NCBI GenBank assembly: GCA_013359235.1
Contig: JABWCE010000002.1
Coordinates: 62,001 to 126,000, forward strand
Direction: 5' to 3'
DNA: 64,000 bases
Source: Bacteroidota bacterium
GTDB lineage: Bacteria > Bacteroidota > Bacteroidia > NS11-12g > UBA9320
The notes under the pieces were generated by a model that worked only from the letters and a program-made list of their open reading frames with translations, was not told the origin of the DNA and did not search any database. Below, piece by piece: positions 35,738 through 47,037 of this stretch (position 1 is its first letter; the number at the start of each line of letters is the position of its first letter). A program made the position numbers and the translations under genes.

Positions 35738-35798
35738 TTCAAACAATTTGCTGGTATAAACTATATCAATTTTCTATTATTAAACCATCCAAAATATT

Positions 35799-35867
35799 TT
35801 AAGCAAATAATTCTTTAATCAATAAAAACAAAAAACTAATGCTGAATAATGATTTTATGTGTTTCAT
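35799..35867 (-). pseudogene. Remnant of the start of a third T9SS-array gene (signal peptide only)
   Basis: On the minus strand an ATG at 35867 opens a 22-codon frame, beginning MKHIKSLFSISF and ending at TAA 35799. Its first 12 residues differ from the start of the T9SS gene at 36828 (MKHIKLLFSISF) by one residue, and the DNA here is part of the 112-bp repeat. It overlaps the end of the upstream gene by 32 bp, just as that gene overlaps its own upstream neighbour. The body of this third gene is missing, so this is the 5' stub of a lost gene rather than a working one. Confidence 0.6.
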
Positions 35868-35943
35868 GGTGATAAAATTTTTTATTGGTTAATTGAATGT
35901 AATAAATTCCATTGGGCAAGTGTTTAGTTGAAATTTGATGTAT
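35832..35943. repeat. 112-bp direct repeat, copy A (with copy B at 36793-36904)
   Basis: 110 of 112 bases are identical to 36793-36904. It holds the last residues of the sorting domain of one gene and, in another frame, the start of the next. The two mismatches lie near the middle of the unit; the similarity falls sharply beyond it. Confidence 0.85.
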
Positions 35944-36828
35944 ATTTTCTTTTGATTGTAAAACTGCTTTTCCATTAATATTTGTAATTGTAATTTCCCA
36001 GCCTGGCGAACCTTGGGGATATTCTATTTGTAAAAAGCTATGAGCAGGATTAGGATAAATTTTTACTCGATTTTGCTTAATTTTATCAATAGATACAGAT
36101 CTAATTGTATCAATCAAATGAATAATTTCCAATTCATCACAATAGTCAATAATTTTCCAATGATCAAAAGAAGAATTTGCAGAATATACAGCCACTTTTT
36201 CCACGTTGCACACTGAAATAAGTTCTTGCCAAAATGGCGAATTACGCCTAATTAGTTTAAAAGGTAGAAGTCCAAAATTAGAACCTATACCTTGCGATGC
36301 AAAAAATGGTGAAGTTACTCTGTAATATTCAGAAGGAGCTCTAGTTAGAATCTTATAAAATTGTGTCCTTCTTAATTGATTGTCTTGAAACTTAACATTT
36401 TTAACACTATCAATCAACAATTTAATGTTAAGTCCACTTGCTGTATGTTTAATTTTCAAAGTATCACCTACTTTCAAACTAAAATCATAAATAATTAAAT
36501 TGTCAGCTTTAAAAGAATCACCGTTTTCATTATACAATGTACCGGTAAAAAATACAGTATCGTTTTTCTCTTTTAAGAAATATACATAAGAATGCTGTTT
36601 CCAATCTTTAGAGCTATAAAGGATTGAATAAAATTTTTCTTGTCCTTTTACAGAATCTAAATGTACAAATTCTTTTGAATAAGTTGCAAAACTCAAACCT
36701 TCAGAAATTGATGGTGCATCGCAGTATGTGTAATAGGTGCTGCTATCTAAAAAGCTGATTTGTGCATTTATGTTATTAACAAATGTAAATACAAAACTAA
36801 TGCTGAATAATAATTTTATGTGTTTCAT
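35836..36828 (-). CDS. T9SS-secreted hypothetical protein
   Basis: 330 residues. Signal peptide MKHIKLLFSISFVFTFVNNINAQ. The mature domain has no family that I recognise; it contains KNDTVFFTGTLYNENGDSF, then LKVGDTLKIKH, as in several secreted Bacteroidota proteins. The last 75 residues are a type A T9SS sorting domain: KIYPNPAHSFLQIEYP, then the strands GWEITITNINGKAVLQ, HLPNGIYYIQLTN and the tail KIIIQH. The final 25 residues match the upstream gene's end exactly. It overlaps that gene by 32 bp and is in turn overlapped by a gene stub at 35799-35867. Confidence 0.85.
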   Translation of the reverse strand: MKHIKLLFSISFVFTFVNNINAQISFLDSSTYYTYCDAPSISEGLSFATYSKEFVHLDSVKGQEKFYSILYSSKDWKQHSYVYFLKEKNDTVFFTGTLYNENGDSFKADNLIIYDFSLKVGDTLKIKHTASGLNIKLLIDSVKNVKFQDNQLRRTQFYKILTRAPSEYYRVTSPFFASQGIGSNFGLLPFKLIRRNSPFWQELISVCNVEKVAVYSANSSFDHWKIIDYCDELEIIHLIDTIRSVSIDKIKQNRVKIYPNPAHSFLQIEYPQGSPGWEITITNINGKAVLQSKENIHQISTKHLPNGIYYIQLTNKKFYHHETHKIIIQH

Positions 36829-36904
36829 GGTGATAAAATTTTTTATTGGTTAATTGAATGTAATAAATTCCATTGGGTAAGTGTTTAGTTGAAATTTGAT
36901 GTAT
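36793..36904. repeat. 112-bp direct repeat, copy B
   Basis: 110 of 112 bases identical to 35832-35943. It covers the 3' end of the 551-residue gene and, in another frame, the ATG and signal-peptide start of the 330-residue gene. Confidence 0.85.
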
Positions 36905-38452
36905 TGTTTCTTTGGTTTGAAATACTTCTTTCCCGTTTATATCGGTAATGATTATTTCCCAACCGCTGGAGCCTGTTGGGTAATCTATTTGTAGAAATGT
37001 ATGAGCAGGATTGGGATAAATCTGACAAATATTTTCGGGAACTTTAATTTTAATGATATTGTCTGTGGCGTTACACCCTGGTGTAAAGCAGCCGTTACTA
37101 TCAAGTTTAAGCAATGCGGCTGTTTGGAAAACGCCCATAGGTTGTGTAGTATCACTAGGCACACCCCATCTACGCATGTATTCACCAGTAAGTAAAAATC
37201 CATTATCAGGAGTTCTGATAAAACTATAAGGTTTAAAGCCTTTGTCTGTGGTGTCAGTTGACCAAAGATTGTATTCTCTGTACCAAATGGGCTTGCCATC
37301 AAACCCTGTTTTAAATAGGTACGGTATAGCAGTCCAGTTTTGAGGATATGGTCTATTTATATAACGATAACCACACCAAACTGCACCATCGTCAAAAATT
37401 AAGGCATCTGTCATTAAATTGGCAGCCACATCTTTGTCTGTAATTCCCATTTTCCAATTCAGAAATTGACGATTATTTTTTGTCCAAAGCTTTTTGCCGG
37501 TTTGGTAATCTATTTCTGCGAACCAAAAAGTTGCATTATCTTTTGATTCCGCAAGATGGTATGGGTCGCCTGGCTTTTTCCATGGACGATAATACAAATC
37601 CAGCCACGAGCATAAAATATTGCCATTGGGCAATTGCACCATTTTAAAATCAGTAGTATTAATAGTATCTTGGTCGCCTACCGGGCGACTTTCCCATATC
37701 AATTTGCCGGTGGTATCTATTTTTTGTATAACCCCTTCAAACTGATTAGCGTCTCCCGCAAAATCCCAACGATCTAAAATTTGTAAAAACAAGTTTGCCG
37801 GGTTTTGGTTGTCTGCGTGGATGTTTTCAAGTTGAATGTCATGATTTGATTGACTGTAAAGTGGATTTAATCTAGTATAAATCAAAGATGTAGTGTTATC
37901 TACATTAATTTTAAGCAATCGAGAACTTTGAACGGTGTTTAACTTATCAAACTTTTTATACCAATTGACCAACGCATATTTTTTATAATTAATTAAAAAT
38001 AAACCCTCAACAAGAGTTGGAAACGTATCATAGTTTATCGGCAATTCTAATTTTTCAAAACTGGGGTATAAAAATACATCAGATTGCCATTTTGTCTCAG
38101 AACCTACAGAGTCACCATAATTTGCAGCAAACAAAAAATAATTGTTATTTAATCTTATCGAATTATTTTTAGTGCGGTACTGTAAATTTGTTAATTCATC
38201 TATTTGGTCTGAATAGTAAAAGAGAGAATCAGATGAGTAAAATTCACCATCAAGCAAACTGTTTTTATTAATATTTAATCCTAAAACTATAGACTTATCA
38301 AACTTTGATGTTGGACAAAAAGAATAAATTGTGTCAGCCAGAATATAACAGTTATTCCCACGCCATCCCGGAACAAACTTAAACCAGGTATTTTGAGCCG
38401 ATAGGCTTAAAACACTGCTTGTAATAAGTATGGTAAGTGTGAACTTTTTCAT
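36797..38452 (-). CDS. T9SS-secreted hypothetical beta-propeller-like protein
   Basis: 551 residues. Signal peptide MKKFTLTILITSSVLSLSAQ. The mature part (25-465) shows repeated blade-like pieces with Trp and Asp (GKLIWESRPVGDQDTINT, NGNILCSWLDLYYRPW, TGKKLWTKNNRQFLNW, DGKPIWYREYNLWST, NGFLLTGEYMRRWG), which fits a beta-propeller of the PQQ/YVTN style. A Cys-containing spot (SNGCFTPGCNA) lies before the sorting domain ICQIYPNPAHTFLQIDYP ... KIIIQH. It is the first intact gene of the array and its end overlaps the next gene by 32 bp. Confidence 0.85.
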   Translation of the reverse strand: MKKFTLTILITSSVLSLSAQNTWFKFVPGWRGNNCYILADTIYSFCPTSKFDKSIVLGLNINKNSLLDGEFYSSDSLFYYSDQIDELTNLQYRTKNNSIRLNNNYFLFAANYGDSVGSETKWQSDVFLYPSFEKLELPINYDTFPTLVEGLFLINYKKYALVNWYKKFDKLNTVQSSRLLKINVDNTTSLIYTRLNPLYSQSNHDIQLENIHADNQNPANLFLQILDRWDFAGDANQFEGVIQKIDTTGKLIWESRPVGDQDTINTTDFKMVQLPNGNILCSWLDLYYRPWKKPGDPYHLAESKDNATFWFAEIDYQTGKKLWTKNNRQFLNWKMGITDKDVAANLMTDALIFDDGAVWCGYRYINRPYPQNWTAIPYLFKTGFDGKPIWYREYNLWSTDTTDKGFKPYSFIRTPDNGFLLTGEYMRRWGVPSDTTQPMGVFQTAALLKLDSNGCFTPGCNATDNIIKIKVPENICQIYPNPAHTFLQIDYPTGSSGWEIIITDINGKEVFQTKETIHQISTKHLPNGIYYIQLTNKKFYHHETHKIIIQH

Positions 38453-38467
38453 ATTTCTATTTATAAA

Positions 38468-38497
38468 ATTCCGTCCCGCTACCTAGCGGGACGGAAT
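38468..38497 (-). terminator. Strong hairpin, probable terminator of the broken T9SS gene
   Basis: Perfect 13-bp inverted repeat ATTCCGTCCCGCT / AGCGGGACGGAAT around the loop ACCT, followed on the minus strand by TTTTATAAAT. It lies 8 bp after the stop of the T9SS remnant at 38506-38598 and 15 bp before the start of the intact T9SS gene. It is far more GC-rich than its surroundings. Confidence 0.7.
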
Positions 38498-38505
38498 AAT
38501 TAAAC

Positions 38506-38598
38506 TTATTTTTGAATAACCACCTTTCTTACGATTGTTGAATTATTGTCTAAACTTAACACTCTAACAAAGTAAACACCGTTTGGCCAATTTTCTGT
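38506..38598 (-). pseudogene. C-terminal end of a T9SS sorting domain, gene cut off by the transposase fragment
   Basis: The minus-strand frame ending with TAA at 38506 reads ENWPNGVYFVRVLSL followed by a TIVRKVVIQK tail. This is the last 30 or so residues of a type A sorting domain (NGVYFVRV, basic end). Upstream of residue TENW the similarity stops and the sequence becomes transposase DNA. No start or body is present here or on the far side of the island, so this is a truncated gene. Confidence 0.7.
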
Positions 38599-39056
38599 CA
38601 CCAAATTGTAATTTTATTGATAAATTTTTTTACAACGGTAATAATCGCGTGTTCTTCAAATGTGTTGCCCGAGAACACTTCATAAGAAATTGGAAAGCCA
38701 TCCTTTGTGACCATCAAACCAACAACTATTTGAGGTTGTTGAGACTTGTTGTCTTTTGAAAAACCATTCTTGCGTAAATCATCTTCCTCAAAAGTCTCAA
38801 AATACAGTGTGGTCACATCATAAAATAATATATCATAACAAAATGCATATCTTTTCTTGGCGAAGTTCACAGCAATAGATTCAACCTTTGATTTCAATGG
38901 CAACCACTCTTTTGCCGATTCGTAATAATTTTGGCGTCTGTGTTTTATTCCAAAATATTGTTCGAGTAATTCAATAGAGCGCAACTTAGAGGCGGGCTCC
39001 ATTATTTGCATTATCACTAAGTTACCAGCAAATGTAGAGAACGACACGACCACCAA
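38598..39056 (-). pseudogene. IS1634-type transposase fragment
   Basis: 152-codon frame with the core of an IS1634-like DDE transposase: the first catalytic block YDILFYDVTTLYFETFEEDD and the later block GFPISYEVFSGNTFEEHAII are plain, as is MEPASKLRSIELLEQYFG. A full transposase is about 500-550 residues; the N-terminal part is absent (homology starts near NLVIMQIMEPASK) and the C-terminus stops at about 38610, where T9SS-gene DNA begins. No inverted ends of an IS are seen. It is therefore a two-sided remnant marking the left edge of the island. Confidence 0.8.
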
Positions 39057-39105
39057 CAGACGACCTTAATTCGAAAGACTATTTCGCTGTTCCTTGACAC
39101 AAACC

Positions 39106-39124
39106 GACCTGACTTTGCCGACAC
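39106..39124 (+). repeat. Island direct repeat, left copy (17/19 match to 46637-46655)
   Basis: GACCTGACTTTGCCGACAC against GACCTGACTTTCACGACAC at the right. It lies in a CGAC-rich, non-coding stretch (about 39057-39190) unlike host DNA. Confidence 0.45.
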
Positions 39125-39194
39125 TCAAGCCGACCCGCAATAAGGATGTTGAAAAGAATTTACCTTTTTTCAGGGTCATTAAAACGGACTTTAT

Positions 39195-39202
39195 TACTTT
39201 TG
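39195..39202 (+). promoter_or_regulatory. Bacteroidota -7 box (TACTTTTG) of the restriction operon
   Basis: Exact TAnnTTTG match 28 nt before the ATG of the XRE regulator. It overlaps the left arm of a perfect palindrome. Confidence 0.55.
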
Positions 39203-39215
39203 ACACGATTGTCAA
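39200..39215. promoter_or_regulatory. Palindrome TTGACACGATTGTCAA, candidate operator of the XRE regulator
   Basis: Perfect 6-bp arms (TTGACA, TGTCAA) with a 4-nt centre. The site begins within the -7 box and covers the expected transcription start, 15 bp before the regulator gene. A bound XRE dimer there would block RNA polymerase. This is inferred; there is no second copy in the window that I can see. Confidence 0.5.
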
Positions 39216-39230
39216 GAAATACGATTCAAG

Positions 39231-39599
39231 ATGCAAACAGAAAATTTAGGCGACTACATCAGACAGCTAAGAGAACAGGCGGAAATGCCATTACGAAAAC
39301 TTGCTGCATTGCTCGATATTGACCAAAGCACACTAAGTAAATTGGAACGTGGAGAGCGACCAGTAAGCCGACAAATGTTGCCAATCATTGCCAAGACTTT
39401 CAAAGTGGACGAGAAAGAACTTGTGATAAAGTATATGAGCAAACAAGTTGCTTATCAACTGGCAGACGAGAAATACGCCAAAGACATTTTGATAGCGGCA
39501 GAGGAAGAATTGAGCTATGCGAAATCGCGAACACCTTTAAAAAAAGAAAAAGCAAGTGAGCAAATAAAATACCTAACCAAAAAGAACGGTAAAAAGTAA
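39231..39599 (+). CDS. XRE-family HTH regulator of the restriction operon
   Basis: 122 residues. The HTH_3 domain (residues 6-64) is clear: LGDYIRQLREQAEMPLRKLA, LLDIDQSTLSKLERGERPVS (recognition helix QSTLSKLERG) and LPIIAKTFKVDEKEL. The C-terminal 50 residues are helical and charged. Its last stop-codon base is the first base of the res start (TAATG), so it is coupled to res. In restriction loci such proteins act as controllers that time endonuclease expression; autoregulation through the palindrome at 39200-39215 is likely. Confidence 0.9.
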   Translation: MQTENLGDYIRQLREQAEMPLRKLAALLDIDQSTLSKLERGERPVSRQMLPIIAKTFKVDEKELVIKYMSKQVAYQLADEKYAKDILIAAEEELSYAKSRTPLKKEKASEQIKYLTKKNGKK

Positions 39600-42400
39600 T
39601 GGAGTTACAATTAGAGAATTTAAAATATCAGGACACCGCTATTCAGGCTGTCATTAAAGTGTTTGACGGAACAGAGAAAAACACCTTTGACAATGCTTGC
39701 ATTGAGGGCATACGTTCTAATTTTTGTAAACTAACTGCTTCGCAGTTAGCCGACAATATCAAAGCTATTGCAAAAGAAAACGGCATTGACGAAGAAACGG
39801 CAAAGTATTCAGCCGACAACGACCTTTGCATTGAAATGGAAACTGGAACAGGTAAAACACTTGTTTACATAAAAACTATTTACGAGCTATACAGACACTA
39901 CGCTTTTACCAAATTTATCATACTTGTTCCGTCAATTGCAATCAGACAAGGAACATTAGGAACATTCAAAACTTTTGAAAAGCAATTAGAAAGTATTTAT
40001 GGCTTCAAGGTTTCGGCTTTTGACTATGACAGCAAGAAACTTAATAAAGTAACCAACTTCATTGAAGAACAGCATCCGCAAGTTCTGATTATGACAACGG
40101 CTGCGTTTGCTTCTGACGACAGAATATTAAACCGAACTCAAAGAGAAGATTTGTTTAATAATCTGCCATACATTGACGCTATTGCCAAAGTGCGACCAAT
40201 CATTTTTATGGACGAGCCACAGGAAGGAATGGATAGCGACAATATGATGGAGCGTTTAAAAACACTTACAACAGAAGAAAGAAAAGAGCGATATAGTGAG
40301 AAAGCAGACGACAGAGAAAAAACAATCTTCAAAACACTTGACCCACTTTTCAAAATTCGTTATTCAGCAACACACAAAACGGTTAAAAATCTTTTGTATC
40401 GCTTAACGCCTTACGACAGCTACAAACAAGGATTGGTAAAGAAAATTGAAGTGCTTACCGTAACAGAAAAAAACGATGAAGCCACAATTAAAATAGAACT
40501 TACAGCAACTCAAAACGGAACAAGCGAACCAAAGGCTAAAGTAAAAGCGTGGAAGTTGAAAGCAGGGAAATTTGTTTTTGAAGAAACAAGTTGGTTGAAA
40601 GTTGGCGATAATTTGGGGGAAAAAACGAATAACCCAAGTTATTTGAACTACAAAATTGAACGCATCAACAAGAGTTTAAAAACGCAAAAGTGGAGCATCA
40701 CTTTTACCAATGGAGTTGAACTTTTTGAAAAGCAAGCATCAGGAAATGTAGAAAATATTTGGGCTTTGCAGTTGGAATGGCTTATACATCGCCACTTTGC
40801 AAAATCTCAAAAATTGCAACCGAAAGGAATTAAGGTTTTGAGTTTGATTTTCATTGACAAGGTTTCAAACTATATGGGCGAAGAACCCAAGATTAAAAAC
40901 CTGTTCGTTGAAAAATACAAAGCCATTTTTCCCGAATACAACGATAGTAAGAACCCAACAGACCAACAAATTCAGGAGCTACAGGGATATTATTTTGCAC
41001 AAAATGCAAAAGGCGAATATTCAGACAACGAGGGTGGACTAAAGGAGCAAAAGAAAATCTACGAACTCATTTTACAGAAGAAAGACGAACTATTGACCAT
41101 CGGCAACCCGATTGAGTTTGTATTTTCTCACTCTGCTTTGGGCGTTGGTTGGGATAATCCGAATGTTTTCAATATCGCAACACTCAATACTGCCTATTCA
41201 GAAATTCGTAAACGCCAGGAAATTGGTAGAGGTTTGCGTATTTGCGTAAACCAACAAGGACAAAGGGTTTATGATGACCCAAAAACACAAGTAGGCGATG
41301 AACTAAATTTATTGACGGTTATCCCCAATGAAACCTACGAAACCTTTGTAACGCAATATCAAAAGGAAATAAACGATGTATATGGCTCAAAAGAAGCTGG
41401 AGCAGCTTTAAGAAACAATCATAAGGGAGAAGATAAATCAGTTAGAACATTCAAACGCAACCAAAAATCAGAAATTGAAACGGCATTTAAAAAATATTGG
41501 AAAGCTTTAGCCCACAAAACTGATTACTCTGTTTTTTTTGAACAAAAGGAGTTAATAAAAAAAGCAACCGAAGAAATAAGCAAAATATCCATTCCTGATT
41601 ATCAAATCGAAGTTAAGGGTACAAGAATAACAAATATTAATGAAGAAGATATTAATTCGGAAAATACCGGTAGGGAAACGACTAATTTGAAAGTAAAATA
41701 TAATCTACATGATTATTTAGAAGAATTTAGCGAGAGTACGTGTTTAGACTATAAAGCCTCAGCAGATATTTTAATTGGTATAAATAATCACTCCCATTTC
41801 GTAAAAAATCCACCACGTTTTATAGCTGAAGCTATTCATATAATGAAGAATGTATTGTTAGAGGAAATGTTTAGAGGATTGTCTTATAATATTATTGGAG
41901 AATATGAAGAAGAATTTGAGGATTTATTTCCATTGCTTATAAAGCAAAATACACAATTTAACTACCCAAGAGGCATACGAGATACGCCAAACAAAGGGGT
42001 TTACGATGGTTTTGTGTACGACAGCGGAGTAGAAAGCGATTTTGGATTATATGCCGAACACGACCCCGAAGTAGTTTGCTTTTTTAAACTACCCAACTGG
42101 TATAAAATCAAAACTCCTATTGGAGAATATGAACCCGATTTTGGATTAGTGATGAAGCGTAAGAGTTTAAAAACAGGAGATGAAACGGAATATTACTTTG
42201 TAATAGAAACCAAAGGAACAAATGACATCAACGATAAAAAAGCACTAACCGAAAGCGAAGTGTATAAAATAAAATGTGCAATGAAACACTTTGAAACCTT
42301 GGGTGTGGAAGTGCATTACAAAGCTCCTGTTAAGGAATATCATTACTTTAAAAAATTGTCAGAACTTGAATTTCAAGAATTAAAGAATAATCAGAATTAG
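39599..42400 (+). CDS. res: Type III restriction endonuclease, Res subunit (helicase-nuclease)
   Basis: 933 residues. Superfamily 2 helicase: Walker A METGTGKTLVYI (Lys86), the Walker B variant MDEPQ at 204-208, and motif VI RQEIGRGLRI (541-545 is EIGRG). The C-terminal nuclease has a PD-(D/E)xK core: EPDFGLV (Asp847) and VIETKG (Glu870, Lys872). Res works only with Mod, moving on DNA after ATP hydrolysis and cutting when it meets a second complex. The stretch coding for about residues 635-790 is more AT-rich than the rest, which may show recombination. The gene ends in an ELEFQELKNNQN tail also found inside Mod. Confidence 0.94.
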   Translation: MELQLENLKYQDTAIQAVIKVFDGTEKNTFDNACIEGIRSNFCKLTASQLADNIKAIAKENGIDEETAKYSADNDLCIEMETGTGKTLVYIKTIYELYRHYAFTKFIILVPSIAIRQGTLGTFKTFEKQLESIYGFKVSAFDYDSKKLNKVTNFIEEQHPQVLIMTTAAFASDDRILNRTQREDLFNNLPYIDAIAKVRPIIFMDEPQEGMDSDNMMERLKTLTTEERKERYSEKADDREKTIFKTLDPLFKIRYSATHKTVKNLLYRLTPYDSYKQGLVKKIEVLTVTEKNDEATIKIELTATQNGTSEPKAKVKAWKLKAGKFVFEETSWLKVGDNLGEKTNNPSYLNYKIERINKSLKTQKWSITFTNGVELFEKQASGNVENIWALQLEWLIHRHFAKSQKLQPKGIKVLSLIFIDKVSNYMGEEPKIKNLFVEKYKAIFPEYNDSKNPTDQQIQELQGYYFAQNAKGEYSDNEGGLKEQKKIYELILQKKDELLTIGNPIEFVFSHSALGVGWDNPNVFNIATLNTAYSEIRKRQEIGRGLRICVNQQGQRVYDDPKTQVGDELNLLTVIPNETYETFVTQYQKEINDVYGSKEAGAALRNNHKGEDKSVRTFKRNQKSEIETAFKKYWKALAHKTDYSVFFEQKELIKKATEEISKISIPDYQIEVKGTRITNINEEDINSENTGRETTNLKVKYNLHDYLEEFSESTCLDYKASADILIGINNHSHFVKNPPRFIAEAIHIMKNVLLEEMFRGLSYNIIGEYEEEFEDLFPLLIKQNTQFNYPRGIRDTPNKGVYDGFVYDSGVESDFGLYAEHDPEVVCFFKLPNWYKIKTPIGEYEPDFGLVMKRKSLKTGDETEYYFVIETKGTNDINDKKALTESEVYKIKCAMKHFETLGVEVHYKAPVKEYHYFKKLSELEFQELKNNQN
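42362..42398 (+). repeat. 37-bp in-frame repeat at the end of res (copy in mod at 44352-44388)
   Basis: 34 of 37 bases equal the copy at 44352-44388. Both are read in the same frame, giving ELEFQELKNNQN at the Res end and ELELQELKNKQN within Mod. Confidence 0.8.
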
Positions 42401-42402
42401 TT

Positions 42403-42804
42403 ATGGATACGATAAAAAAAACGGCAGCCGAGTTTAATGATAGCACTAGTAAAATAATTGGCTGTGCAATGCGTGTACATTCAACATTAGGTAATGGCTT
42501 TCAGGAAGTTATTTATCAGAGGGCATTAGAAATAGAAATGCGACTAGAGGATTTGGAATTTCAGAGGGAAATGGAAATGCCAATTTATTACCGTGATGAA
42601 CAAATTGGAACTCGCAGGGTAGATTTCTTTGTGGAAAATGAAATAATGGTTGAGCTCAAAGCTATTATTGAGTTAGAAGATGTGCATTTAGCACAAGCAA
42701 TCAACTATCTTGAGGCATACAATATGAAAACGGGTTTGCTTATCAATTTCGGAAGCAAAAGTCTGACTTTTAAAAGATTAATAAACAAGAAATTTAAAGT
42801 ATAA
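42403..42804 (+). CDS. GxxExxY-family protein
   Basis: 133 residues. The name-giving motif is GFQEVIY (Gly32, Glu35, Tyr38), followed by the PD-(D/E)xK-like core RRVDFFVENEIMVELKA (Asp74, Glu84, Lys86). The family (TIGR04256-type) is thought to have a nuclease-like fold; its biochemical activity is not known to me. It is placed exactly between res and mod, 2 bp after the res stop, and its last base is the first base of mod. It is therefore expressed together with the restriction enzyme and not an independent insertion of a larger element. Confidence 0.88.
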   Translation: MDTIKKTAAEFNDSTSKIIGCAMRVHSTLGNGFQEVIYQRALEIEMRLEDLEFQREMEMPIYYRDEQIGTRRVDFFVENEIMVELKAIIELEDVHLAQAINYLEAYNMKTGLLINFGSKSLTFKRLINKKFKV

Positions 42805-44864
42805 TGGAAGAAATAAAATCAAATTCAGGACATTCTGATAATTCCCGAAATTCCGGTTCAGACAATGTATGGATGCCTTTGAGCAAAGACTGGAATAAGG
42901 AGAGATTAACGCAGTTGAAACATCTTTTTCCTGATTTGTTTACCAACGAGGGCAAACTGAATATTGATGAACTGAAAAAAGTAGTTGACCCCGAAAGTGT
43001 GAGTGAAACTGAACGCTATGAATTTCGCTGGTTTGGGAAAAGTGCCGCCAAAAGAAACGCCTACACGCCAAGCAACGCAACTTTAATATTTGATGAAGCA
43101 AGAAGTGTTAATCCGAATGAAAGCGAAAACTTAATAATTGAAGGAGAAAACCTTGAAGTATTAAAATTGCTTAGTGGAAGCTATCGAGAGCAAGTCAAAT
43201 GTATTTATATAGACCCACCTTATAACACTGGAAAGGACTTTGTTTATACGGACAATTTTACCGAAGAAAAGAAGCCATATTGGGAACAGACAGGAGTAAC
43301 CGAAAACGGATTAAAGATTGACACAAATACTGATACTGACGGAAGATACCACAGTAATTGGCTGAATATGATGTATAGCCGTTTACTGATTGCCAGACAG
43401 CTTTTGCGAGAAGATGGCGTGATTTTCATTTCAATTGACGATAATGAAGTTCACCATTTAAGAAAGTTATGTGATGAAGTATTTGGTGAAGAAAATTTTG
43501 GCGGACAAATTATTTGGCAAACGGCTACGGATAATAATCCAACTCAAATTGCAACTGAACACGAATATGTTTTATGCTATTTAAAAGATAAAAACGAGCA
43601 AGATTTTTGGGAAGTCCCTTCCGACAAAGGGAAAATTATTCAAGAAAAATACGATGCATTAAAAGCTAAATACTTAGAAGATATAGAAAGCATTCAGACT
43701 GAATTAAGGAAATGGATAAGGACTCAAACCAATGGAAATGATTTGTCTGGGGTTGCTCACTATTCCTATGTTGATGAACAAGGAGTTTACTATCCAGGAA
43801 ATTCGGCAAACACAAAACCTGGAGGTTACACGTATGACATCATTCATCCAATTACAAAGAACGTTTGTTCTAAACCTGAATATGGATATAGATGGACTTT
43901 TGAAACCTTCTCAGAAGCTGATAAACGAGGTGATGTGCAATGGGGTGATGACGAAAACACTATCCCAAAAATTAAGAAAAGACTTGATACTGTATCTCAA
44001 AGGTTAAAAAGCTATTACTATGAGGATAACAGAGCAACATCAGGAGAACTAAAAACTTTATTTGGAGGCGTTAAGGTTTTCAATAATCCTAAGTCGGTTA
44101 ATTTCTTGAGACATATTATCAAATTTGTTACAAATGAAAATGATATAATACTGGATTTTTTTGGTGGAAGTGGTTCAACTGGACAAGCTATTTTTGAACT
44201 TAACAAACAGGACAATTTAGGTAGGCGATTTATTTTAATTCAAATTCCTGAATTAACAGATACAAAAACAGAAGCATTTAAGAATAGCTACAAAAAAATC
44301 AGCGACATAACTATTGAACGCAACAAACGAGTAGTTGAAAAAATAAGGTCGGAACTAGAATTACAAGAATTAAAGAATAAACAGAATTTATTTGGTAATT
44401 CTGAAAATTCAGCTAATTCAAAAAATTATAGTTCAGACAATTTAGGTTTCAAAGTTTTCAAATTAGTAAAATCAAATTTCCCAAGAGTTGAGTGGGCTCC
44501 CGATGTGGAGAAAACAGACGAAGAAAATATTGCATCACTCAAAAAATACATTGCCGACAAAGAAGCCCAATTAGTAACTGCATTCAATAGAAACGAATTG
44601 CTGACAGAGATTTTATTAAAGAACGGTTTCCAGTTAAACTACAAAGCCGACAAGCAAGAACAGTTTAAGAAAAATGAAATTCTTTTAGCCACAGACGGCA
44701 TAAAAGAAACATTGATTTGCTTAGATGTTACCATTGAAGCCGACACAGTAGAGTATTTCAAAAAGCACACAGACAAAAAATTTATTTGCCTTGAACGTGC
44801 CTTAGACACAACCAAGAAATACAACTTGAAACATTATTTGGGCGACAAGTTTAATGCGTTTTAG
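42804..44864 (+). CDS. mod: Type III DNA methyltransferase, Mod subunit (N6-adenine)
   Basis: 686 residues. Beta-class order: catalytic motif IV DPPY (residues 137-140, followed by NTGKDFVYTDNF), then the target-recognition region (about 235-435), then the SAM-binding motif FFGGSGSTGQ (about 451-460). It methylates one strand of an asymmetric site and carries the sequence specificity for Res. The N-terminus has Ser/Asn-rich runs (NSGHSDNSRNSGSDN) and a second such run (GNSENSANSKNYSSDN) follows the 37-bp repeat at about residue 525. The base composition of the recognition region is lower in GC, as expected if it is exchanged by recombination. It is followed by tcmP after 2 bp. Confidence 0.94.
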   Translation: MEEIKSNSGHSDNSRNSGSDNVWMPLSKDWNKERLTQLKHLFPDLFTNEGKLNIDELKKVVDPESVSETERYEFRWFGKSAAKRNAYTPSNATLIFDEARSVNPNESENLIIEGENLEVLKLLSGSYREQVKCIYIDPPYNTGKDFVYTDNFTEEKKPYWEQTGVTENGLKIDTNTDTDGRYHSNWLNMMYSRLLIARQLLREDGVIFISIDDNEVHHLRKLCDEVFGEENFGGQIIWQTATDNNPTQIATEHEYVLCYLKDKNEQDFWEVPSDKGKIIQEKYDALKAKYLEDIESIQTELRKWIRTQTNGNDLSGVAHYSYVDEQGVYYPGNSANTKPGGYTYDIIHPITKNVCSKPEYGYRWTFETFSEADKRGDVQWGDDENTIPKIKKRLDTVSQRLKSYYYEDNRATSGELKTLFGGVKVFNNPKSVNFLRHIIKFVTNENDIILDFFGGSGSTGQAIFELNKQDNLGRRFILIQIPELTDTKTEAFKNSYKKISDITIERNKRVVEKIRSELELQELKNKQNLFGNSENSANSKNYSSDNLGFKVFKLVKSNFPRVEWAPDVEKTDEENIASLKKYIADKEAQLVTAFNRNELLTEILLKNGFQLNYKADKQEQFKKNEILLATDGIKETLICLDVTIEADTVEYFKKHTDKKFICLERALDTTKKYNLKHYLGDKFNAF
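44352..44388 (+). repeat. 37-bp in-frame repeat within mod
   Basis: Second copy of the repeat at 42362-42398 (34/37). It joins the catalytic core of Mod to a low-complexity Asn/Ser linker. Confidence 0.8.
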
Positions 44865-44866
44865 AT

Positions 44867-45724
44867 ATGAACAATTTCGGAGGTGATTGGACAAAAATAA
44901 AAATTGAAATACTCGTAGAGTATGCAAAAGCATATCTGTCAATTATGAAAAACAGAAAGTTTTTTAAATTGATGTATTTTGATGGCTTTGCTGGCTCTGG
45001 CTTTATTGTCAAAGACAACAAGATTGATATTGATGTTACCGTTGGTGCTGCAAGGCGAATAATAGAAATTGATAAACCTCGTCCATTCGACACATATTAT
45101 TTCGTTGAAAAAGACCCGAAGAACTTTAAGCTGTTAGAAAGTAACACAAAAGAAGATTTTCCCAAAAAAAATATTCACACAGTTCCCGAAGATTGTAATA
45201 AAAAGTTGCTTGATATGGCAAACTTTTTAAGAAATCCCAAAAATAAAAACTACAGAACCCTTGCTTATATTGACCCTTGTGGTATGCAAGTAGAATGGCG
45301 TTCAATAGAATGTTTGCGAGACTTGCCAATAGATATGTGGGTATTAGTTCCAACGGGCTTAGGAGTAAATAGATTACTGAAAAAAAACGGTCAAATTTCT
45401 GATGCATGGTTGGAGCGTCTTGAAATGTTTCTTGGGCTTACAAGAGATAAAGTTGAAAAGTATTTCTATAAAAAAATAGATACGCTTTTTCCTGATATAA
45501 CATTTGTTCAGAAGGAAGAAGATGCTATTGAAAAATCAGCAAAATTATATCAGAAAAGATTAAAAGATGTTTTTAAATATGTTTCAAAGCCCTATGAGTT
45601 AAAGAACTCAAGTAATTCTGTAATGTATCATCTTTACCTCGCAACAAATAATGAAAGTGGAGTAAAAATCGCTAATGACATCGTAAAAAAATACAACAAT
45701 AAAAATGGCACAATCAAGCATTGA
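44867..45724 (+). CDS. tcmP: Three-Cys-motif partner protein TcmP
   Basis: 285 residues. Shared TcmP features are visible: [20 protein letters not shown] at the start, FDGFAGSG (38-45), [13 protein letters not shown] (79-91) and [12 protein letters not shown] (133-144), then [13 protein letters not shown]. The order of these blocks is that of a Rossmann-fold SAM-dependent methyltransferase (motif I, acidic motif II, DP-type motif IV), but its activity is not known to me. The name comes from its constant neighbour, a three-Cys-motif DUF5131 protein, which here follows with a 20-bp overlap. It is 2 bp after mod, so it is in the restriction operon. Confidence 0.88.
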
Positions 45725-46436
45725 ATGGACTGAAATGACCTGGAACCCGACAACGGGTTGCACCAAAATTTCTGCTGGTTGTAAATTCTGCTACGCAGAA
45801 GTTATGTCAAAACGCTTAAAGGCAATGGGCGTTGACAAATACAAAGACGGCTTTAAAGTTCGTGTTCACCCTGAAGCATTGAATATTCCATATACTTGGA
45901 AATCTTCAAAAGTTGTTTTTGTAAACTCAATGAGTGATTTATTTCATAAAGACATTCCGCTTGAATTTATTAAGCAAGTGTTTCACGTAATGAATGATAA
46001 TCCGCAACACGGTTTTCAAGTATTGACAAAGAGAGCGGAGCGACTATTTGAACTACACAAAGAACTAAAGTGGACACATAATATTTGGATGGGAGTATCA
46101 GTAGAGAACGACAAAGTAATTGACCGCATTGACTTTTTAAGAAAGACAAGAGCCAAAGTAAAATTCTTATCCCTTGAACCACTTATCGGACCTTTAGAAA
46201 AGTTAAACCTTAAAAAAATTGACTGGGTAATTGTTGGCGGAGAAAGCGGACACAAACCAAGACCAATGAACCCTGACTGGGTTTTAGACATACAGGAACA
46301 ATGCGAAAAAGCAGACGTAGCATTTTTCTTCAAACAATGGGGCGGACGAAATAAAAAGGCAGCAGGACGACTTTTAAACGGTCGGACTTATGACGAAATG
46401 CCAGAAATAATGGAAATAGAAAAAGGAGCAAGATAA
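45705..46436 (+). CDS. DUF5131 (phage Gp37/Gp68 family) three-Cys-motif protein
   Basis: 243 residues. The start [20 protein letters not shown] with Cys19, Cys26 and Cys29 (C-x6-C-x2-C, ending CKFCYAE) is diagnostic. Further family blocks: [57 protein letters not shown] and [10 protein letters not shown]. The three Cys could bind an iron-sulfur cluster in a radical-SAM-like TIM barrel; that is an inference from the family. It starts inside tcmP, 20 bp before its stop, and is the last gene of the operon. Confidence 0.9.
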
Positions 46437-46448
46437 TGGCAACGCACA

Positions 46449-46515
46449 GGTGTAAGCACATTTGCAACCGCTACAAGCCCATTCGCAGACCAAAGTTTGC
46501 AAAAGAGCTTACACC
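46449..46515. repeat. Imperfect inverted repeat, 19-bp arms
   Basis: Left arm GGTGTAAGCACATTTGCAA (46449-46467), right arm TTGCAAAAGAGCTTACACC (46497-46515); 16 of 19 positions pair, with the three mismatches together in the middle. It starts 13 bp after the last gene of the operon. It could be a terminator-like or recombination-site structure. Confidence 0.65.
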
Positions 46516-46566
46516 TCTCCCACCCGAGAAAAATTATTTTTTAAAATTCCCTTCAAAAATTTTTAA

Positions 46567-46704
46567 AACCGCCACCGCACAACCGACACATAAAGACCAA
46601 AACACAAACCTGACAATGACAGCGCAACCCTTATCAGACCTGACTTTCACGACACGACAGACAGAACGCCAGCAGGTAACAGCGGTTTTGCAAAAGTGGC
46701 GGTT
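46567..46704. repeat. Long-range inverted repeat AACCGCCAC ... GTGGCGGTT
   Basis: Perfect 9-bp arms at 46567-46575 and 46696-46704, 120 bp apart, enclosing the right copy of the 19-bp island repeat (46637-46655). Confidence 0.55.
46637..46655 (+). repeat. Island direct repeat, right copy
   Basis: GACCTGACTTTCACGACAC, 17/19 to 39106-39124. The two copies lie about 7.5 kb apart in the same orientation and enclose the whole operon. Confidence 0.45.
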
Positions 46705-46757
46705 CAGTGCTTCGTATGACAGTTTTGTGGTAGGTTCAAGTGCAGTTCTTCGATTGA

Positions 46758-46775
46758 ATCTCGCACTTGCGAGAT
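46758..46775. repeat. Short perfect hairpin ATCTCGC-ACTT-GCGAGAT
   Basis: 7-bp stem and 4-nt loop at the right end of the structured non-coding region; no T-run follows. Confidence 0.55.
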
Positions 46776-47037
46776 ACTTATAATCCGCAACTACGCCAAG
46801 CCGTAAACGTCATTTTAACTCTTTTTCTGTTGACGATTTTATAAATCTGGATTGAAACAGAACTTGATGAATAACTAATAGCTCTAATTTTATACATTTT
46901 GACCGATTAGGTCAGCAAAATACGAGTTTTTCAAATATATAGTGCGCAATATCAAGCACTTAATTTTTATCCAATATTGACACGGATAAGTCGGGAATTT
47001 GAAATTTGTTATTATTACTTAAATAAACTTGGCTCGG

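Follow-up and report, generated by a model that had tools for sequence, protein, structure and literature searches.

A type A sorting tail that also encodes the start of the next secreted protein: overlapping junctions and probable tail replacement in a T9SS cargo array of the Bacteroidota

Why should the last codons of one secreted protein serve as the first codons of another, and how could two such junctions in the same array come to be almost identical? These questions are raised by a small gene array in a Bacteroidota bacterium, found within positions 62,001-126,000 of contig JABWCE010000002.1 (assembly GCA_013359235.1); this stretch of 64,000 nt is referred to as the window, and its coordinates are used throughout. 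The genes of the array lie on the minus strand. Gene A (36797..38452) encodes a protein of 551 aa, with a putative signal peptide, a beta-propeller-like body of 441 aa and a T9SS type A sorting tail or CTD (36797..37021; TIGR04183 at residues 478-550). Gene B (35836..36828; 330 aa) follows with a putative signal peptide, an all-beta body and a sorting tail of the A type (35836..36060). The last codons of A are at the same time the ATG and signal-peptide start of B over 32 nt (36797..36828), and the last codons of B are likewise the start of a decayed gene X over a further 32 nt (35836..35867). What is left of X is an ORF of 22 codons (35799..35867, minus strand), within a longer remnant (35780..35867, minus strand) in which a decayed ILDG segment lies behind the stop. 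An initial annotation of this DNA had described a repeated unit of 112 bp, identical at 110 positions, that reads as the end of a sorting domain in one frame and as the ATG and signal peptide of the following gene in another, with overlaps of 32 bp; both tracts are there as described, and both overlaps are of exactly that length.

Both the tails and the machinery point to the T9SS. Profile searches recovered TIGR04183 type A tails in A (E 3e-11) and B (E 9e-12), and the scores of A, B, X and a further cargo protein from a relative, Y, range from 33 to 45 bits, all over the curated cut-off of 23. The N-termini of the cargo proteins, read by eye, show a Lys/His head, a hydrophobic core and an xAQ site, and the machinery is represented in the genome by a full-length SprA (2409 bits). 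A is probably a beta-propeller, judging from an AlphaFold model with a pLDDT of 80 whose matches to propellers are weak and of low TM-score; the model of B is of middling confidence (pLDDT 64) and gave no significant PDB match, its family being all-beta. The bodies of A and B are unrelated, as had been noted from the start, to which we add that B and X fall within a single loose superfamily and that Y is also loosely related to both.

Overlaps of this kind are rare in the source genome (G000). Among approximately 70 sorting-tail ends inspected there, only those of A and B overlap what follows by more than 4 nt, the end of B running into the stub; the overlap is therefore no general by-product of T9SS tails, and a general habit of such tails to overlap the next gene was rejected on this count (2 of ~70). 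A 4-nt overlap adjoins another T9SS gene of the same genome. For B, no alternative Met lies nearby and the ATG in the overlap is the only plausible start, which means that B depends on the overlap for its signal peptide.

The two frames constrain each other closely. Tails of the A type end in (H/Y/N)-E-T-H-K-I-I-I-Q-H-stop, and the other frame reads M-K-H-I-K-L-L-F-S-I-S, that is, a start codon and the head of a signal peptide; as can be read directly from the sequence, the third base of a tail codon is the second base of a signal-peptide codon, and Ile-Ile-Ile must accordingly be written ATT ATT ATT if the other frame is to read Leu-Leu-Phe. Between genomes (G-numbers denote comparison genomes, one per species, those named here being metagenome-assembled), 28-32 of the 32 core positions are identical, as against 40-58 of the 90 preceding nucleotides; the A genes of the source genome and of G098, for example, share the core in full (32/32) and the preceding stretch at 41/90. 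Homologues of A without an overlapping neighbour match at 12-25 of the 32 core positions. In four independent pairs, codons at conserved residues of the tail frame are unchanged in 28 of 31 cases within the overlap and in 22 of 47 upstream of it (p=6e-5). These comparisons demonstrate, at the sequence level, that double coding locks these 32 nt. A reason for the overlap may be suggested from its composition: the end of a T9SS tail, basic and then hydrophobic, reads in the next frame as the basic and then hydrophobic head of a signal peptide.

The near-identity between the ends of A and B extends well beyond this core. It covers positions -76 to +35 around each ATG (36793..36904 and 35832..35943, both on the minus strand, with 2 differences in 112 nt) and has sharp borders, as 50 of 151 nt differ just before it and 13 of 30 just after; when the differences were shuffled, none of 20,000 trials yielded a comparable window.

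The same junction recurs in relatives with different partners. The 32-nt core, with at most 3 mismatches, was recovered from 5 of the 108 genomes of the order; approximately 380 genomes of the class outside it gave none, and diverged junctions there were detected only through searches with protein A. Within the order, A is followed by Y in G017, by a stub with another secreted gene some 50 nt further on in G098, and in truncated form by a pseudogene in G052, while in G042 X precedes B and a second copy of the start lies before X. In another order, A is followed by a B-like gene in G181, and G141 holds two arrays, one with A and X'' and the other with A, X' and a decayed X. All 10 overlapping junctions, from 7 genomes and two orders, place the ATG at -32 and end in TAG, a stop used by 4 of the 39 other genes in the window. 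The base is adenine at -3 in 10 of 10 and at -6 in 9 of 10; adenine at -3 is favoured at starts in Bacteroidota (PMC6847099), and this context would be compatible with coupled translation as well as with independent starts. The array is nonetheless rare: in the order, most homologues of A end clear of the neighbouring gene and a minority keep the overlap, and no relatives of A were found on plasmids. Several loci illustrate the surroundings of such tails. The X gene of G042 (L059:3915-4805) contains a single in-frame TAA ahead of its sorting tail, which itself looks intact, as does the start of B that overlaps it. The source genome carries a second, diverged A gene (L077, G000:C44), 14 nt after another T9SS cargo gene and without overlap, and two neighbouring tails elsewhere (L006 and L007, G000:C34:10456-11868), ending in NESHRIVIKH and NESHRILIRH, look like a pair of related tails. 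A further A-like gene in G017 (L078, G017:C1:396475-397119) ends in ETHKIIIQ and has a 4-nt ATGA overlap with the next secreted gene.

The sorting tails of some downstream genes do not appear to share the history of their bodies. The B proteins of the source genome and of G042 are 51% identical in their bodies and 33% in their tails, whereas the tail of our B is 85% identical to that of its neighbour A. The X tail of G042 is of the A type, with 59% identity to our A tail and 30-38% to the X tails of other genomes. The clearest case is G141, in which X' agrees with its sister X'' at 28 of 30 and 12 of 12 positions up to and across the YPNP codons (93-100%), and from 42 nt past YPNP resembles the A of the other array at 80-93%, its identity to X'' falling to chance. 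A foreign A-type tail on the downstream gene is thus seen in three genomes (our B, X of G042 and X' of G141), with a sharp switch at YPNP, the first motif of the tail, in our B and in X' of G141. Trees agree with this pattern, in that bodies join our B to the B of G042 (support 95/96) and tails join our B to our A (support 99/84). AU tests on the short tails did not reject a grouping of our B tail with that of its orthologue (p 0.195) or of the G042 X tail with other X tails (p 0.126), the sole rejected tail grouping being that of G042 X with G100 X alone (p 0.003); tail trees were accordingly dropped as formal proof of swaps, the tails being too short and the tests mostly non-significant. As read from the alignments, the mosaics indicate that sorting tails have moved between genes; other genes appear to have received a copy of the double-purpose tail on at least three occasions, in bacteria that are distant relatives.

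The last gene of the array can be identified from a locus elsewhere. A search of the genome, which the initial annotation had proposed, returned a third, degenerate copy of the unit at G000:C15:3422-3484, so that the unit occurs as two near-identical copies, as had been stated, but not only twice. This third copy precedes an intact T9SS cargo gene, X, and upstream of that gene a sorting-tail frame can still be read, broken by one stop, as a relic of the same junction. Past the unit, the remnant matches intact X at 45 of 56 nt, including the ILDG motif behind the stop codon of the stub; the alignment score is 34, as compared with 10 +/- 1.8 in shuffles (0 of 2000 as good) and with 10 against B, on which ground we rejected the idea that the stub is the mere end of a tract copied from the junction of A and B. 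The 22-codon stub is, on this match, the decayed start of a real third gene, in line with the earlier suggestion that a third gene had lost its body, and since the sequence beyond the unit matches X and not B, the array of the window once read A, B, X.

The array lies in an island of 11.3 kb between the DUF4349 and pgk genes (35738..47037). In four genomes of the same genus (G001, G003, G004 and G006) this island is absent and the DUF4349 gene directly faces pgk, so that within the sampled genus the array is an acquisition specific to the source genome. Besides the array and an IS1634-family transposase fragment (38598..39056, minus strand), the island contains a restriction-modification system of type III and two genes that form a candidate defence pair; between 39231 and 46436 the window shows an HTH regulator, a type III restriction enzyme and methyltransferase, and the candidate pair PDC-M41A/B, the second gene of which is DUF5131. 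Upstream of A, and directly beside the transposase fragment, lies the end of a further T9SS tail (38506..38604, minus strand; TIGR04183 E 5e-4, under the curated cut-off), a remnant of an upstream cargo gene. In the complete operons of G141, A is preceded by a cargo gene of 820 aa, P, and the tail of P is the best match of this remnant, which possibly represents the P gene of such operons.

Could the near-identical ends reflect constraint only, that is, an old and vertically inherited overlap held similar by double coding and by the demands of export, with no recombination? The locking of the core by two frames speaks for this, as does the occurrence of the overlap in another order; however, approximately 80 of the 112 nt are single-coded, and there 24 of 25 conserved codons are identical as opposed to 17 of 30 just upstream, while the mosaic tails with their breakpoint at YPNP are left unexplained, and we consider the idea quite improbable. 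An ordinary tandem duplication of the gene after A, with the bodies diverging later and no exchange of tails between unrelated genes, draws on the loose relationship of B, X and Y, and unequal crossing over between tails would indeed double the following gene together with its start. Against it, the body of B groups with the B of G042 and not with X (a grouping of our B and X bodies is rejected, p 5e-5), the order of genes differs, B preceding X here and following it in G042, B and X elsewhere have tails of other than the A type, and no array was found whose adjacent bodies are mutual nearest relatives; such a duplication is therefore unlikely as the source of the arrays. A different reading concerns the short ORFs behind the last unit, which might be functional as small exported peptides or leaders instead of remnants. 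That three genomes have such stubs, of 22, 20 and 29 codons, speaks for this, yet in the source genome and in G141 an X-like mature protein continues behind the stub, past the stop or out of frame, and the ATG of a stub would be kept regardless because it sits in the tail of the preceding gene; we regard functional peptides here as very improbable indeed.

The explanation that we favour, and hold to be probable, combines an old overlap with more recent copying. The double-coding overlap would be the long-standing junction of a family of T9SS cargo operons, and homologous recombination or gene conversion, a route and direction that we infer, would copy an A-type tail onto the following cargo gene, with entry at the conserved YPNP that opens the tail and exit inside the signal-peptide start. 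The start of the next gene would travel with the copied tail, so that the array can be extended in register, as in A, B, X here. A second and recent conversion in the source genome would then have rendered 112 nt of the two ends near-identical, and X decayed to a stub. The copying of an export tail that carries the next start is the well-supported part of this explanation. The initial annotation had proposed that recombination between identical units adds or swaps secreted domains while keeping the export tail upstream and the export signal downstream. Much of this stands: further copies exist, the arrangement varies among relatives, and the junction is found with varied partners and orders (A, B and decayed X; X and B; A and Y; A, X and decayed X), tail and signal being kept each time. 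Crossing over between identical units is the part that has to be revised, as the data point instead to tail replacement with a breakpoint at YPNP and a later homogenisation of 112 nt; an exchange of bodies through the identical units may occur, and no case of it was seen in the arrays compared. As the PorV shuttle is common to all type A tails (PMC12618676), these should be interchangeable, and exchanges of tails should keep export working. The overlapping genes may further be translationally coupled, and the arrangement may bring some advantage. In short, the sorting tail would be a module that also carries the export start of the next gene, offering a concrete route by which an operon could gain new secreted proteins with no need for a start, signal peptide or sorting tail to be made afresh. 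A broader and more tentative proposal, possible but on balance doubtful, is that a tail whose second frame holds an export start serves as a self-registering cassette joint. Each copy of such a tail would make a ready export start for whatever follows, and through this joint the arrays of secreted proteins would lengthen and take on other partners in several orders of the Bacteroidia.

The proteins themselves are, by their predicted features, ordinary T9SS type A cargo. They share with other sorting-domain proteins of this type (TIGR04183 / PF18962) the succession of (putative) signal peptide, body and type A tail, and SprA is present in the genome; the difference is that the coding end of the tail here also encodes the start of the next gene. 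Polymorphic toxin cassettes likewise combine an export part that stays constant with bodies that can be exchanged, and show displaced remnants; in the array, however, no toxin or immunity features were found, and exchange takes place at tail and start and not at a toxin junction. In the literature that we searched, with incomplete coverage, we found no account of a sorting tail that passes from gene to gene and encodes the next export start in its other frame. Short overlaps on the same strand are common in operons, as with the 4-nt ATGA, and there too the downstream start lies inside the upstream gene (PMC2174442), whereas the present overlap, at 32 nt, is conserved in both length and sequence and belongs to a module that moves. 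In Porphyromonas gingivalis, the T9SS surface proteins Kgp, RgpA and HagA have been diversified by domain rearrangement and allelic exchange (PMC5266723); while it is the adhesin and catalytic domains that vary in those proteins, it is the sorting tail that moves here, together with the start of the gene that follows.
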